A stretch of 7,227 bases of DNA from a bacterium (GTDB lineage: Bacteria; Patescibacteriota; Minisyncoccia; Phycocordibacterales; UBA6065): assembly GCA_030648825.1 (NCBI GenBank), contig JAUSGU010000027.1, positions 1 to 7,227 of the forward strand, in the 5' to 3' direction. Below, in pieces: positions 1,863 through 5,960 of this stretch (position 1 is the first letter of the stretch; each line of letters starts with the position of its first letter). Made by a program: the position numbers and the translations under genes. The notes under the pieces are model-generated. The model saw only the letters and a list, made by a program, of their open reading frames with translations, made no database searches and had not been told where the DNA came from.

Positions 1863-2855
1863 TCAGGGTAAGTATCCAATACCGACCTGTTTCATAATCT
1901 TATATGTATTACCATGGGAAAGAAGTCCTCTGTAGGAAATTATAGTTTGAGACTTTGGATACCATTGCATATTTTTTATAATTTTCCGTTTTGTGGTAGT
2001 TCTCAACTGCCGATGATGTGGAAAATGTGTCCATCCTAAAAAATCCACGCCAGAAGCGTATGTTTTGATATAGACCTTATTTTCATGGAGAGATAGGTGG
2101 AGTTTGCCGTTAAGAAATTTATGAATCTTTGTTAGGAGGTTTTCAAGATATTCTTTGTTCTCGGATAAAATTACAAAATCATCGGCATATCGTATATAGT
2201 ATTTTATTCTTAGCTCTTGTTTCATATACATATCAAATTCATGCATATAAATATTTACCAGAAGTTGTGAGGTTAAATTACCCAAAGGAAGACCGATACC
2301 TTTCTGCTTGGAATAAAAACTAATAATCACTTGTTCAATAAGCCAGAGAATATCTACATCCTGAATGTGTCTTTTGAGTATATTTATAAGAACTGATTGG
2401 TCTATGCTCGCGAAAAACTTTCTAACATCACATTTGAGAACAAAACATGTCCGTGTATGGTTCCTTGAAACCTTGCCCGCAAAATATTTAAAACGATCTA
2501 GTGCTCTATGAGTGCCTTTATATTTTATACATGAATAAGAATCATAAATAAATCTATTATGAAAATACCAGCAAATTTCTTTGTAGATGAGATGATGCAC
2601 AATCCTGTCTCGAACAGTCGCTTTGTGAATATTTCTAGGCTTTGGATCTGAAATATTGAATGCCGTATATGAATCATGGGTATAAGTTTTGTTTTTCAAA
2701 GCATTATAGAGAGCGATAATGTTTGTCGCCAAATCCATTTCAAAAGCAATAACATCTCTTTTGTGCCGCTTGCCAGAGATAAATTTCTCCCACGTTGCAA
2801 GAAGATTTTCTATGGTTATGATAGATTTATATTCATGACTGAACACAGCACACAT
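1863..2855 (-). CDS. DGR-type reverse transcriptase
   Basis: 330 residues from the ATG at 2855. RT motifs appear in order: IYDSYSCIKYKGTHRALDRF (about 103-122, the DGR/group II-like region before motif A), VLKCDVRKFFASID with Asp143 (motif A), GIGLPLGNLTSQ (186-197; the DGR hallmark GxxxSQ), the YADD box (223-226), GVDFLGW (269-275), and a C-terminal YRGLLSHGNTYK region (308-319) common in DGR RTs. There is no maturase, endonuclease or integrase domain. The role is to copy TR RNA into cDNA with errors at adenines, for transfer into VR. The frame is open up to a TTG at 2900, but that extension only translates a palindrome and poly-G tract, so 2855 is preferred. The only purine-rich sequence upstream is the G run; no ordinary SD is seen. 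DGR RTs usually have YMDD or a close variant; YADD keeps both catalytic aspartates. The gene looks intact. Confidence 0.95.
   Translation of the reverse strand: MCAVFSHEYKSIITIENLLATWEKFISGKRHKRDVIAFEMDLATNIIALYNALKNKTYTHDSYTAFNISDPKPRNIHKATVRDRIVHHLIYKEICWYFHNRFIYDSYSCIKYKGTHRALDRFKYFAGKVSRNHTRTCFVLKCDVRKFFASIDQSVLINILKRHIQDVDILWLIEQVIISFYSKQKGIGLPLGNLTSQLLVNIYMHEFDMYMKQELRIKYYIRYADDFVILSENKEYLENLLTKIHKFLNGKLHLSLHENKVYIKTYASGVDFLGWTHFPHHRQLRTTTKRKIIKNMQWYPKSQTIISYRGLLSHGNTYKIMKQVGIGYLP
2795..2822 (+). promoter_or_regulatory. Possible promoter for avd (TTGCAA, 16 nt, TATGAT)
   Basis: TTGCAA (2795-2800) and TATGAT (2817-2822) lie inside the 5' end of the RT gene, facing avd. The -10 box is 5 of 6 to consensus and the spacing is 16 nt. 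A transcript starting near 2829 would carry the 13-bp palindrome across the avd start. The match is only moderate. Confidence 0.3.
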
Positions 2856-2865
2856 TCTACCCCCC

Positions 2866-2896
2866 CCCCTACAAGCACCACTAGTGCTTGTAGGGG
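2866..2896. repeat. Perfect 13-bp inverted repeat beside a 10-C tract, between the RT and avd starts
   Basis: Arms 2866-2878 and 2884-2896 are exact reverse complements (CCCCTACAAGCAC and its partner) around a 5-nt loop. The left arm is the end of a run of ten C (2860-2869). The repeat fills most of the 28-nt gap between the divergent RT and avd genes and covers the avd start. Neither strand has a T run after the hairpin, so it is not an intrinsic terminator. Its core (CCCCTAC and GTAGGGG) recurs in the hairpin at 3215-3237 at the other end of avd. Possible roles are control of both starts or a recombination scar. Confidence 0.85.
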
Positions 2897-3231
2897 CCAA
2901 AAAAACATACCGATTGTGGCATGATTATTTGGTAAATTTAAAACGTTTGGATAGTGTCACTATAGGTGAAAAAATTGATAACACATTTCTGACTTTGTTG
3001 GAACTGATTTTTAAAGGGTGTTTTGCTACAGACAAATTCGAAAAACTTTCATTTGTATCTCTGGCTATAGGTAAATGTGACATTTTGAAATTCTTTCTTC
3101 AAATAAGCTGGGAACATAAAATAATAGACCACAAAAAATATGGTGAACTCATTCTTGAGTTGGATCACGTTGGCAGAATGCTTGGCGGATGGAAAAAGAA
3201 TATTCAAGAGAAAACTCCCCCTACTAGGTAG
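2884..3231 (+). CDS. avd: Avd-like DGR accessory protein (four-helix bundle)
   Basis: 115 residues if started at the GTG at 2884. The pattern fits the Avd / four-helix-bundle (S23-like) family: KKTYRLWHDYL (first helix), VTIGEKIDNTFLTLLELI (second helix; the family's YxLGxKI region), EKLSFVSLAIGKCDILKFFL (third helix), and IIDHKKYGELILELDHVGRMLGGW (fourth helix with the family's closing IGRMLGGW-type motif). In the Bordetella phage system Avd forms a pentamer that binds the RT and nucleic acid and is needed for retrohoming. The start is uncertain: GTG lies inside a palindrome, has no SD, and the first five residues do not look like the usual IPI-type N terminus. The gene lies on the strand opposite to RT, TR and target, and its last codons coincide with the TR terminator. 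The family call is good; the N-terminal end is doubtful. Confidence 0.85.
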   Translation: MLVGAKKTYRLWHDYLVNLKRLDSVTIGEKIDNTFLTLLELIFKGCFATDKFEKLSFVSLAIGKCDILKFFLQISWEHKIIDHKKYGELILELDHVGRMLGGWKKNIQEKTPPTR

Positions 3232-3237
3232 AGGGAG
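3206..3237 (-). terminator. Intrinsic terminator just downstream of the template repeat
   Basis: On the minus strand a 10-bp stem (CTCCCTCTAC with GTAGGGGGAG, one U-G pair) and a 3-nt CTA loop are followed directly by TTTTCTCTT. It begins 12 nt after the end of TR, so it should end a TR transcript before it reaches the RT gene. On the plus strand it overlaps the last codons and stop of avd. Confidence 0.7.
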
Positions 3238-3248
3238 AAATCATAAAA

Positions 3249-3381
3249 GTTGCAGAAGCAGAGGAGGCAGTTGTCGTCGTTCCAGTCATTCTCGAAGTTG
3301 CCCAAGTTGAACTTGAAATCGTCATCCGAGTTCCGGTTCACGTAGGGAACCCTGTGGTTGCCGTCGGTATTCTGCCAAAGC
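3249..3381 (-). repeat. DGR template repeat (TR)
   Basis: 133 bp that align without gaps to VR (3723-3855, offset 474). There are 20 mismatches, every one at an adenine of the minus (coding-sense) strand of TR; 35 adenines are present, and all 98 other positions are identical. Identity stops sharply at both ends (3248 and 3382 differ at non-adenine bases). Read in the target frame, TR encodes ten Asn codons, all AAC or AAT, which cannot give stop codons when only A is changed; all ten differ in VR. TR lies between the target gene and avd, in the same orientation as the target and the RT. No stand-alone protein product is likely; a 64-codon open frame here only reflects the target's VR. Confidence 0.97.
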
Positions 3382-3607
3382 TTTGTACGATAAGCCACCT
3401 ATTCCACCGAGGGAGACGCCAGCCGCCCTCTGTATTTTATGCCGAGCCTTATTTTGCTCGATAGCTTATCGCACCGACTTATTTGATTTTTTCATAAAAG
3501 GCGACACTCATCCGCAAGGCGTACCCGACGGACCGCTGGCCGATTCCTCATACGAGAATTCGATTGAGTGAAGCCGTAGCCGCACCTGTAATCTAATTCC
3601 AGATAAA
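3382..3607. other. Gene-free stretch upstream of TR, with an imperfect inverted repeat
   Basis: No credible gene is seen. The open frame on the plus strand at 3383-3571 has no recognisable motif, start signal or family resemblance. The stretch carries an inverted repeat of 11-nt arms (3385-3395 and 3464-3474, 10 of 11 paired, GATAAGC core) whose left arm begins 4 nt from the TR boundary. It would be the 5' part of a TR RNA. It is richer in GC than the RT and avd genes. Confidence 0.45.
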
Positions 3608-3613
3608 AGTATA
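3608..3613 (-). promoter_or_regulatory. Possible -10 box for TR RNA
   Basis: The minus strand reads TATACT, the same hexamer as in the target gene's strong promoter, located between the target's terminator and TR. No good -35 sequence lies at 17 nt, so support is weak. Confidence 0.3.
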
Positions 3614-3629
3614 CTAAATGTTTGAGTAT

Positions 3630-3658
3630 AGAAAAGGCCCCTGTTTGCACAGGGGCCT
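3630..3658 (-). terminator. Intrinsic terminator of the DGR target gene
   Basis: A 9-bp GC-rich stem (AGGCCCCTG with CAGGGGCCT; 3635-3643 and 3650-3658) with a 6-nt loop is followed on the minus strand by TTTTCTATA (counting the last stem T). It lies about 60 nt after the target stop codon at 3717. DGRs often have a hairpin just after VR that aids retrohoming; this one is farther away than usual and has a U tract, so termination is the simpler reading. Confidence 0.8.
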
Positions 3659-3716
3659 CGTATTCAAAGGATCAAAAGACCCAAGAACTTTTTTTAAGCG
3701 ACAAAGTGTCAAAGCA

Positions 3717-4400
3717 CTATTCGTCGCAGAAGCAGAGGAGGCAGTAGTCGTCGTCCCAGTCAAACTCGAAGCCGCCCAAGCCGAACCCGAAACCGCCACC
3801 CGAGTGCCGGAACACGTAGGGAACCCTGCGGCTGCCGTCGGTATCCTGCCAAAGCGCTTTCTTCTCATCAAAGGAGACACTCCAGCGGTTGATCGGCAAC
3901 TGGTTTTTCGCCTGCTCGTAAGCAAGTGAAGCACCCTGGGCACCGACGAGAACTGCCTTTTGGCTCTTGAGGAAACCGAGGCAATCCACTGACGTTACCG
4001 TCTCCTTGATTTGGAACACCTTGACCTTGAACTTCCGGCCGGCAACGAGTTTGGTCGTCGCCGAGCTATAGTTCTTGTCAGTGATGGCGTCGTTGTAGTA
4101 ATTGAACTCCTTGCGGTGTTGGTTACTAAACGTTTCCAGACGAGTGGCGTGATTGTAACCTTCCGGCACAACTACACTGAACTCACCAACCTGCTCGAAG
4201 CGCTTGTCTGCGACAACGGTCGTTGTCCCGTCATATTCGCCACGCATGAGGCGGTCGTATGCGGACCAGAACTCGGGGTCTGCACCGTGCTTGATTCCAT
4301 CAACCCGCTCCTGTGAGAGATTGAGGGAGTTAGCGCGCGTGCACATTTGCCCGTGGAGACTGAATACCGACTCTGGACTAGCGGATGATATCTTTGTCAT
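3717..4400 (-). CDS. DGR target protein with C-terminal variable region (CLec-like), N-terminal part of unknown function
   Basis: 227 residues from the ATG at 4400, which has GAGGT 5 nt upstream; an in-frame start at 4433 lacks this. The last 45 residues (about 183-226) are encoded by VR. RVPYVFRHSGGG, FGFGLGGFEFDWDDDY and CLLCFCDE fit the C-type-lectin-like ending of DGR variable proteins (RVP, then a motif of the LxxFxxDWxD kind, then the final strand). Fifteen residues differ from the TR-encoded version: 186, 190, 191, 197, 199, 201-203, 205, 207, 210, 213, 216, 219 and 226. Residues 1-170 are hydrophilic, with no signal peptide, lipobox or membrane segment, and I do not recognise a family. 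The protein ends just after VR. The invariant CxxCxC cluster (220-225) near the end is unusual. It has its own promoter and terminator. Higher GC than RT and avd. Confidence 0.93.
   Translation of the reverse strand: MTKISSASPESVFSLHGQMCTRANSLNLSQERVDGIKHGADPEFWSAYDRLMRGEYDGTTTVVADKRFEQVGEFSVVVPEGYNHATRLETFSNQHRKEFNYYNDAITDKNYSSATTKLVAGRKFKVKVFQIKETVTSVDCLGFLKSQKAVLVGAQGASLAYEQAKNQLPINRWSVSFDEKKALWQDTDGSRRVPYVFRHSGGGFGFGLGGFEFDWDDDYCLLCFCDE
3723..3855 (-). repeat. DGR variable repeat (VR)
   Basis: 133 bp at the 3' end of the target gene, matching TR at 3249-3381. Twenty differences, all at TR adenines: 14 A to G, 5 A to T, 1 A to C on the coding strand, and each contributes to an amino-acid change. 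The 3' end holds an 18-nt tract without adenine (3726-3743, coding TGCCTCCTCTGCTTCTGC), identical in TR and the best candidate for the initiation-of-mutagenic-homology (IMH) site. The stop codon is 4 nt beyond the repeat. Confidence 0.97.
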
Positions 4401-4405
4401 GGTAT

Positions 4406-4410
4406 ACCTC
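4406..4410 (-). promoter_or_regulatory. Shine-Dalgarno site of the target gene (GAGGT)
   Basis: GAGGT ends 5 nt before the ATG at 4400 and decides this start over the upstream in-frame start at 4433. It is the only clear SD site in the window. Confidence 0.75.
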
Positions 4411-4479
4411 GTATCGTATCGGTGCCGTGTCATCTCTAGATTTCCTATAAAAGCGAAACCAAAAGTGCTTATCGGGTGC

Positions 4480-4539
4480 GATCAGATGCGAAATTTGGAC
4501 AATTCGCGGAGACGAACAGGCCAAATTTCGCATCTGATC
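4480..4539. repeat. Perfect 19-bp inverted repeat in the leader of the target gene
   Basis: Arms 4480-4498 and 4521-4539 are exact reverse complements (GATCAGATGCGAAATTTGG and its partner) around a 22-nt spacer. It lies between the target promoter (4573-4601) and the SD, so the mRNA leader would fold into a strong hairpin. No T run follows on the minus strand, so it is not an ordinary terminator. It could be a leader regulator, an RNA-stability element, an operator for a dimeric protein, or the remnant of a small repeat. Confidence 0.85.
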
Positions 4540-4572
4540 TTCTGCTTCTTTCAATGTACTATACTACCTACT

Positions 4573-4601
4573 AGTATACACCCTAACAACGATTCTGTCA
4601 A
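4573..4601 (-). promoter_or_regulatory. Near-consensus sigma-70 promoter of the DGR target gene
   Basis: On the minus strand TTGACA (4596-4601) is separated by exactly 17 nt from TATACT (4573-4578): a perfect -35 and a 5-of-6 -10. Initiation near 4566 gives a leader of about 165 nt that includes the 19-bp inverted repeat. The -10 overlaps a 7-bp inverted repeat (TATACTA, 4560-4566 and 4572-4578) that could be an operator. No other gene lies between it and the target. Confidence 0.8.
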
Positions 4602-4650
4602 GTTTTTTGAGATACCTTCTGTTATATGGCTTACATTAAAGCTTTTTTAG

Positions 4651-4763
4651 TCACGAAAGGGATGTTTGAGTTGTGGCTTTCGGAGGCTGCGGAGGCAGCC
4701 GAGAACGAGCTGCTCCGCCAGTAGGCGGAGACAGCGTACACAACTCAAACATTCCTTTCGTGA
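4651..4763. mobile_element. MITE-like 113-bp inverted-repeat element with 4-bp target duplication
   Basis: Terminal arms of 25 bp (4651-4675 and 4739-4763) are complementary at 24 positions, the other being a G-T pair. The interior holds two more hairpins: GGCTGC with GCAGCC (4685-4700) and CTCCGCC with GGCGGAG (4713-4730), the latter extended by 4 bp past a bulged A. TTAG occurs directly on both sides (4647-4650 and 4764-4767), as a target-site duplication would. It has no coding capacity. It sits at the rpoD stop codon, so it forms the 3' end of the rpoD mRNA. No U run follows on either strand; it could still act as a stabilising 3' structure. An alternative reading is an unusual terminator-like structure with no mobile origin. 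Confidence 0.55.
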
Positions 4764-5960
4764 TTAGTAATTCTTCAGCTGATTTATTCTCTCGTGCTGT
4801 CGGATTTTTTCATGGGCCTTGGCTTCTATTTGGCGGATACGCTCACGAGTGACGCCGAATTCCCTGCCCACTTCTTCCAATGTATGAGTGATGCCATCGT
4901 TTAGACCATGGCGCATTTCCAAAATCTTGCGTTCTTTTGGCGATAGATCGCCGAGTATATTTTTGACTTGATCTGCCAGTATTCTGCGCGAAGATTCCTG
5001 ATCGGGAGAGAGAATTTTGTCATCAGAAAGAAAATCACCGAGAGTAGATTTACCATCATCACTATCATCACCCACGGGACTCTCCAGAGACACTGTATCC
5101 TGATCTATTTTTTCTATTTGATAGACTTTTTCCACTTCCAGACCCATCTCCGTGGCTATTTCATCAGGCAATGGATCTCGACCGAGGTCCTGGGAAAGTC
5201 GACGGAAAACTTGTTTATATTTTGCTATCGTTTCCACCATATGGACAGGCACGCGAATAGTGCGAGACTGATCAGCCAGAGCGCGAGTGATAGCCTGACG
5301 AATCCACCATGTGGCGTATGTGGAAAATTTATAACCTTTTGTCCAATCAAATTTATCTACAGCTTTAAAGAGACCCAAGTTCCCTTCTTGGATGAGATCA
5401 AGCAGAGTGAGATCGGCGCTACGCCCCACATATTTTTTGGCGATGGAAACAACGAGGCGCAGGTTGGCTTTTGCTAGCAGACCTTTAGCTTCATCATCTC
5501 CCGACTCTATACGTCTGGCCAGTTCTTTTTCCATGGCGGCGGAAACCAGAGGGTATTGACCGATTTCTTTGAGATACATCTGAATAGAATCATACGAGGA
5601 TTCACTACCTAGCCGGCCTAAACCATATTTCTTGCCGGTTTCTTTTACCGGTGGTTCTATATCCAGCATGCCACCCGATTCCAAGACATCCACGCCGGCG
5701 GTGGAGAGTCTGCTGTATAAATCGTCCAGAAATATAATATCGTCTTCTACAGTCGGAAACTCTTTCAGAATCTCATCGTATGTGATAAAACCCCTTTCCT
5801 TGCCTTTGGCGATCAGTTTATCGGCACGACGGTTCGCCTCCCTAGCCTTTTCTTTGGCTTTTTGCTGTTTCGGGGTGAGCTTTTTCTTGGCCTTGCTTTT
5901 TTTTGGCGTTTTTTTGGATATTCGGGCCTTTTTTGTTTTTTTGGACATTTTTTTAGACAT
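4764..5960 (-). CDS. rpoD: Primary RNA polymerase sigma factor (sigma-70, RpoD/SigA)
   Basis: 398 residues with the group 1 sigma pattern. A Lys/Ala-rich N terminus (1-55) leads into a short region 1.1 (about 56-100). Region 1.2 follows at YDSIQMYLKEIGQYPLVS (about 123-140), region 2 with NLRLVVSIAKKYVGR and DLIQEGNLGLFKAVDKFDW (166-206), region 2.3-2.4 at STYATWWIRQAITRALADQS (213-232), region 3 (about 233-295), and region 4 ending in the -35-binding helix-turn-helix LEEVGREFGVTRERIRQIEA (361-380). It directs core RNA polymerase to housekeeping promoters; regions 2.4 and 4.2 look standard, agreeing with the TTGACA/TATAAT-type signals seen here. It lies 21 nt after dnaG, the common dnaG-rpoD order, but also has its own extended -10 box. 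The start at 5960 is supported by that box. The stop codon touches the MITE-like element. Confidence 0.98.
   Translation of the reverse strand: MSKKMSKKTKKARISKKTPKKSKAKKKLTPKQQKAKEKAREANRRADKLIAKGKERGFITYDEILKEFPTVEDDIIFLDDLYSRLSTAGVDVLESGGMLDIEPPVKETGKKYGLGRLGSESSYDSIQMYLKEIGQYPLVSAAMEKELARRIESGDDEAKGLLAKANLRLVVSIAKKYVGRSADLTLLDLIQEGNLGLFKAVDKFDWTKGYKFSTYATWWIRQAITRALADQSRTIRVPVHMVETIAKYKQVFRRLSQDLGRDPLPDEIATEMGLEVEKVYQIEKIDQDTVSLESPVGDDSDDGKSTLGDFLSDDKILSPDQESSRRILADQVKNILGDLSPKERKILEMRHGLNDGITHTLEEVGREFGVTRERIRQIEAKAHEKIRQHERINQLKNY

Follow-up and report, generated by a model that had tools for sequence, protein, structure and literature searches.

Most of what the literature covered here says about the choice of template and target by diversity-generating retroelements (DGRs) comes from a single phage system. 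In BPP-1, mutagenesis is adenine-specific (PMC12875486, PMC3240598), the spacer is a structured RNA that recruits the complex of reverse transcriptase (RT) and Avd and primes complementary DNA (cDNA) synthesis (PMC12875486), and a hairpin or cruciform is required after the variable repeat (VR) (PMC3240598); PMC8867640 mentions a trailing RNA that is about 200 bases long and conserved in structure. DGRs of the Candidate Phyla Radiation (CPR), or Patescibacteria, were known beforehand, as the initial annotation of the present DNA had noted: they include the cell-encoded "DGR clade 2" (Roux et al. 2021, PMC8144416), and some CPR RTs have been placed in clade 5 (PMC10907252). Here we analyze a stretch of 7,227 nucleotides (the window), which is one entire contig (JAUSGU010000027.1) of the patescibacterial assembly GCA_030648825.1 (548,629 bases, 88.7% complete). 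Judged by the sequence features tested, the locus it carries is a DGR, and we consider it likely that this is a patescibacterial DGR whose template RNA holds the RT scaffold 5' of the template repeat (TR) and which rewrites adenine codons at the end of its target gene. Coordinates are given in Table 1.

The TR and VR align without gaps over 133 bp. All 20 mismatches fall at the 35 TR adenines and none at the 98 non-A positions (hypergeometric p ~1e-14); from TR to VR, 14 are A>G, five A>T, and one A>C, and they alter 15 residues, among them all ten TR-encoded Asn. The recount agrees exactly with the initial annotation, and adenine specificity is seen beyond the window as well: 597 of 636 mismatches are at A across 36 patescibacterial loci (636 of 677 with two Bacillota loci added), and 308 of 335 in 18 of the 20 loci drawn from the class and the phylum; the scan for pairs required an A-compatible stretch, and boundaries and mismatch counts were then redone without that condition. 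A direct TR/VR pair is not detected in eight of 46 loci (L006, L008, L053, L054, L067, L072, L089, and L083, the last of which has an inverted pair), and no pair is found in two of the 20 class- and phylum-draw loci (L165, L170). A search of the whole assembly at E <= 0.001 yields no TR-like place besides the VR.

Immediately 5' of the TR, on the same strand, lies a conserved RNA with a core of about 110 nt and three helices. The distance from the core end to the TR is -7 to 56 nt in 36/36 loci, and the TR comes directly after this RNA in the 18 class and phylum loci with a detected pair; the whole VR–TR interval measures 240–421 nt in the 36 loci. The helices covary: in a plain MAFFT alignment of the 36 loci (A2), 93.9% of helix cells are standard pairs, compared with 65.8 ± 1.1% after shuffling and 30–55% in slid registers; 266 cells are altered on both sides (84.9 ± 8.8 expected), 21 of 24 helix pairs show at least one both-side change, and nine of the 12 pairs of helix P1 have both partners altered in one sequence or more. 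The consensus fold energy of the core is -37.3 against -1.6 ± 1.8 for column shuffles in 11 close loci, and -31.9 against 0.0 in all 36. The template RNA would start near 3618, downstream of a putative -10 element; hexamers with at least five of six matches to the -10 box occur in 31 of 36 loci, a weak excess over the shuffled 22.8 ± 2.5.

A covariance model built from A2 (R1) gives the window, one of its own building sequences, 94.9 bits. It matches 65/65 sources, a result that is not independent, because 61 of them were fetched for their R1 match; in the R1-fitted alignment 97.0% of cells pair (76.2% when shuffled). Among 17 chosen sources, matches are strong for the window, L053, L054, and L083, weak for L089 (E 0.28), and absent from BPP-1, L007–L009, and eight further sources; L053, L054, and L083 had been picked by their RT and stand outside the building set. 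Order-wide, in 397 genomes, R1 is found in 139 (E <= 0.01), the RT in 149 (E <= 1e-30), and both in 122, so the RNA and the RT co-occur (Fisher p 1.6e-55, kinship ignored). Two wider draws, which share some genomes, give R1 matches in 88 of 285 (class) and 34 of 192 (phylum); R1 matches none of 146 genomes in the order of a Lachnospiraceae genome with its own DGR, where filters were stricter and the draw held no positive genome. No Rfam family reaches its gathering score in the window and eight relatives, the best E in 3200–3640 being 9.2. The model finds template RNAs even on contigs without an RT.

One might take this RNA for a cis-regulatory leader or riboswitch that controls RT expression and stays outside the retrotransposition machinery, and the promoter-like box, the junction architecture, and the terminator-like hairpin downstream would all suit such a role. 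However, the TR stands between the RNA and the hairpin, the core keeps close to the TR in all loci counted above, and the proposed helix P0, described below, links the RNA to the TR 3' flank; we hold a leader to be very improbable.

A terminator-like hairpin with a T tract stands directly 3' of the TR and scores at this place in 93 of 100 loci, a count without a shuffled baseline. The bases between the TR and the hairpin complement the A-rich strand at the start of the RNA core (e.g., AAATGAAGA with TCTTCATTT, AAATAAAAA with TTTTTATTT, and AAATGAAGT with ACTTCATTT). Statistics were collected on 93 of 100 loci retained after anchoring and then on the 82 of these 93 with a clear register. In the 93 loci, positions 2–8 are paired in 73.6% of cases, compared with 63.7 ± 1.2% for permuted rows and 44–58% for slid registers; in the 82 loci, the values are 77.9% and 41–58% (slid), with 19 both-side changes on single tree branches compared with 2–7 when slid. 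By these pairing statistics, the two strands probably form a 5'–3' helix (P0) joining the TR 3' flank to the 5' RNA. If true, P0 would set the 3' end of the TR, which is where cDNA starts in BPP-1, against the 5' scaffold.

The strand opposite avd shows no conserved fold: in the close loci five overlapping segments stay within two standard deviations of shuffles (best -2.6 vs. -0.7 ± 1.1), and the fold energy in all 36 loci is 0.0. This bears on the possibility of an ordinary DGR with a 3' spacer, where transcription reads through the hairpin, the RNA antisense to avd binds the RT, and the 5' RNA serves only to stop the RT or stabilize the transcript. That arrangement would match BPP-1, with its spacer 3' of the TR and reverse transcription ended by a motif 5' of the TR (PMC12875486), and it agrees with the position of the RT downstream of the TR on the same strand. 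On the other hand, antisense avd lacks a conserved fold in 11 close or all 36 loci, whereas the 5' core folds, and the terminator-like hairpin follows the TR at once in the window and lies at that place in most of the loci scored. Because antisense avd showed no structure, we lowered the weight of a 3' spacer, which now appears unlikely, and raised that of a scaffold 5' of the TR.

Downstream of the VR, the motif CYYNG is enriched at a spacing of 7–8 nt. The 75 nt after the VR contain 210 matches in 37 loci (53 ± 6 shuffled), with a lag-8 autocorrelation of z ~15, and 96 in the 18 class and phylum loci (22.7 ± 4.0). Chains of at least four units are seen in half of the 36 loci, compared with 0.3% of random segments, and a single unit in four loci; the enrichment is strong over the whole set and weak in single loci. 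The array is also present behind the target end on a contig without an RT (L072), behind an inverted VR (L083), and in L014. Low chain values were obtained for the sequence after the TR (mean 0.67), after the BPP-1, L007, and L009 VRs, after the L011 and L017 target-like genes, and at a guessed place in L016. As a guess, the array could be a recognition site for a multimeric protein.

Some loci are arranged differently. In L083, the TR and VR are inverted (5521–5652 and 3426–3557), so that the target is reversed, yet the 5' RNA stands before the TR and the array after the VR. In genome G005, the RT and TR (L054) and the target with its array (L072) are on separate contigs, by a remote VR or an assembly break. 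The assembly to which the window belongs also holds a second DGR (L094, G000:C47:1-5924), with a target open reading frame (ORF) at 4246–4893, the RNA at 5130–5238, a TR at 5240–5372, and a VR at 4751–4883; 21 of its 23 mismatches are at A. An avd-like ORF lies at 5377–5751 on the other strand, and the start of the RT is cut by the contig end (both recognized by eye).

The RT, called DGR-type in the initial annotation, matches PHROG 1423, reverse transcriptase (E 8.7e-102), and PDB chain 8ub7_A, "Reverse transcriptase", as the best one (E 3.2e-36); in NCBIfam, the top model describes a group II intron RT (E 2.5e-38), and the match is far under the cut-off of that model. Translation probably starts at the ATG near 2855 and not at the TTG at 2900. 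In a tree of 45 rows, a branch (97/88) separates 31 patescibacterial RTs from the others, ten DGR-labelled RTs form a group of their own (98/93), and four group II intron RTs form another; the DGR labels were assigned by the author, on TR/VR evidence for BPP-1 (annotated), L007, and L009, and on an annotated Avd for the ACA2 and Nostoc rows, while L008 has no TR/VR pair and four phage RTs carry the label alone. Ten rows were left out of this tree, four fill less than half of the columns, several RTs are truncated, and several branches are long. The phylogenetic check proposed in the initial annotation places the window RT with the Patescibacteria RTs, beside the DGR-labelled ones and apart from the group II intron RTs.

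The Avd-like protein is borne out by its match to PHROG 3206 (E 4.1e-13); NCBIfam NF033474 (E 7.2e-11) and Pfam bAvd (E 3.5e-9) are both below their cut-offs, and a PDB search at 0.01 gave nothing. The avd gene is opposite to the RT in 41/41 distinct loci with both matches, counting the window but not L003 and L005, which duplicate L058 and L059, and in 20/20 class- and phylum-draw loci, that is, in 61/61 together. Wherever the TR was located, avd lies between the TR and the RT (36/36 and 18/18 loci), and in the 36 loci the Avd match ends 12–90 nt behind the TR, as counted from alignment ends and not stop codons. The initial annotation had called the DGR complete; all core parts are indeed present, but the term was too quick, because the template RNA reaches past the TR and the orientation of avd was missed.

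The RT, avd-like, and target reading frames are all open, in line with the earlier statement that these genes, with the VR at the 3' end of the target, are present and intact. The likely start of the target is about where its homologues begin. The five best homologues after the window's own entry (P0001, P0002, P0004, P0005, and P0006), compared at the protein level, differ from the window at 15, 16, 18, 16, and 13 of 24 A-codons, respectively, and at 0, 0, 0, 1, and 0 of the 20 VR codons without A in the window's TR. Non-adenine variation in the VR, named at the outset as an observation that would speak against adenine-specific diversification, is thus limited to 0–1 of 20 codons in these relatives. 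Variation at A-codons and almost never elsewhere within the VR indicates that the DGR of this lineage has been active, as far as can be told from protein comparison. A decayed relic with old TR/VR differences fits poorly with the open frames of all three genes, with the identity of the TR and VR at 98/98 non-A positions, and with homologues that differ within the VR almost only at A-codons; we regard it as the most improbable of the explanations.

In P0006, the C-terminal domain is the same as in the window target and the N-terminal part looks different, which suggests an exchange of the N-terminal domain. Ahead of the target, a promoter-like site (TTGACA-17-TATACT) is found at 4601–4573, and a 27-bp inverted repeat (89%) at 4480–4539 probably belongs to the 5' untranslated region, since it lies between this site and the target start. 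Another inverted repeat, with 37-nt arms, is seen at 4639–4775, between the target and rpoD.

Table 1. Features of the DGR locus, with positions in the window
Feature	Positions	Strand	Basis or remark
DGR reverse transcriptase ORF	1863–2900	minus	PHROG, PDB, motifs GNLTSQ and YADD
Palindrome between the divergent avd and RT starts	2870–2892	none	read from the sequence
avd-like gene	2884–3231	plus	antisense to TR, RT, and VR; occupies the TR–RT interval
Terminator-like hairpin with T tract, directly 3' of TR	3215–3237	minus	contains the avd stop codon on the other strand
Probable P0, 3' strand (TGATTT)	3238–3243	minus	pairing statistics
Template repeat (TR)	3249–3381	minus	alignment with VR
Core of the conserved 5' RNA (helices P1, P2, P3)	3384–3496	minus	model R1 and covariation
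P1, 3' strand	3385–3396	minus	pairs with 3463–3474
P1, 5' strand	3463–3474	minus	pairs with 3385–3396
Probable P0, 5' strand (AAATCA)	3484–3489	minus	pairing statistics
5' half of the RNA, hairpins	3497–3618	minus	consensus folding, with 12 close and 85 distant sequences
TATACT, putative -10 element of the template RNA	3625–3630	minus	hexamer count
Stretch behind VR enriched in CYYNG spaced by 7–8 nt	3648–3722	minus	longest chain in the window, 3 units
Target gene	3717–4433	minus	ATG near 4400 as the likely start; tentatively C-type-lectin-like in a model of the C-terminal part
Variable repeat (VR), at the target's 3' end	3723–3855	minus	TR alignment and target homologues

Taken together with the proposed scaffold 5' of the TR, these parts could work as follows. 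A short, stand-alone RNA would be transcribed from about 3618 and comprise the 5' structured domain, the TR, and the terminator hairpin (3237–3215), while the divergent gene pair beside it would supply Avd and the RT; avd is convergent with the template RNA because avd and the RT form this divergent pair. The A-rich strand 3489–3484 would pair with 3243–3238 behind the TR, leaving the TR looped and its 3' end at the scaffold, where RT–Avd would begin cDNA synthesis and miscopy adenines. The cDNA would then replace the VR, which may be marked by its A-poor 3' end and perhaps also by the CYYNG array behind it.

Several points weigh against this reading. The case is built on sequence analysis, and the slid-register controls lean towards a structure derived from these very sequences. 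P0 has, besides its compensatory changes, 73 breaking changes on the tree of the 82 loci; its samples lose seven of 100 and then 11 of 93 loci, and of the seven positions counted, one benefits from the retention of rows with a final TTT. Support for the -10 element is weak, the hairpin may be read through towards the RT, an RNA match is missing from 27 of the 149 genomes with the RT, and an RT match from 17 of the 139 with the RNA.

A stronger version would have the patescibacterial DGRs mechanistically separate, with a stand-alone RNA of about 400 nt, a 5' RT–Avd scaffold, a TR loop setting the priming site, and a CYYNG array, rather than a cruciform, wrapping a multimeric protein such as an Avd ring; it is a possibility that we put forward tentatively and doubt more than we believe.

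On one side, the locus is flanked by rpoD and dnaG, and on the other by HicAB-like, FKBP, and LOG-family genes; the HicB-like/HicA pair, resembling a toxin–antitoxin system (1389–1860; HicA above and HicB below the Pfam cut-off), adjoins the RT end. A phage origin was considered. No relative of the RT turned up when viral contigs were scanned by pattern, phage records contain distant RTs only (167, all below 60% identity; the best among the rows listed has 37%), and the 18-base RNA motif occurs in eight viral contigs, six of which reach only E 0.043–0.085 with the RNA model. Since the viral scans lack close relatives and the flanks are of the kind listed, this origin is not supported.

With respect to described DGRs, the window is probably a new member of a known CPR clade: like the clade 2 CPR DGRs (PMC8144416), it is cell-encoded and has a target without a recognizable conserved domain; its RT may belong to clade 2. 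The main text of PMC8144416 contains no occurrence of avd, accessory, orientation, or strand. In the open literature covered, which lacks some key DGR papers, neither the 5' RNA nor the antisense avd nor the array was found to be described, so that an earlier mention is possible. Retrons (PMC8867640) also carry a structured RNA ahead of the reverse-transcribed segment on one RNA, which we use as an analogy only; unlike them, the window has a TR/VR pair with adenine-only differences.

BPP-1 (AY029185) and the window have in common the RT, Avd, TR, and VR, with RT motifs GSLTSQ/YMDD in BPP-1 and GNLTSQ/YADD in the window. BPP-1, phage ACA2, and a Nostoc plasmid encode the accessory gene and the RT on one strand, whereas avd of the window is antisense. 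The order in BPP-1 is mtd(VR)-bbp7-TR-144 nt-brt, all on one strand, where bbp7 is presumably avd; in the window it is target(VR)-array-5' RNA-TR-hairpin-antisense avd-RT. In place of the 144-nt spacer that separates TR from brt in BPP-1, the window has an oppositely oriented avd, and the TR strand shows no conserved fold there; where BPP-1-type elements have a hairpin or cruciform within 4–34 bp of the VR, the window has the periodic CYYNG motif enriched. With its 5' RNA and array, its antisense avd, and no conserved 3' spacer, the clade looks like a differently built DGR variant, with a different template RNA and a different target site. A large clade in which the RNA scaffold and the TR stand in reverse order and the VR is followed by a different signature would offer an independent test of which DGR parts are essential, and possibly another RNA design for targeted mutagenesis.

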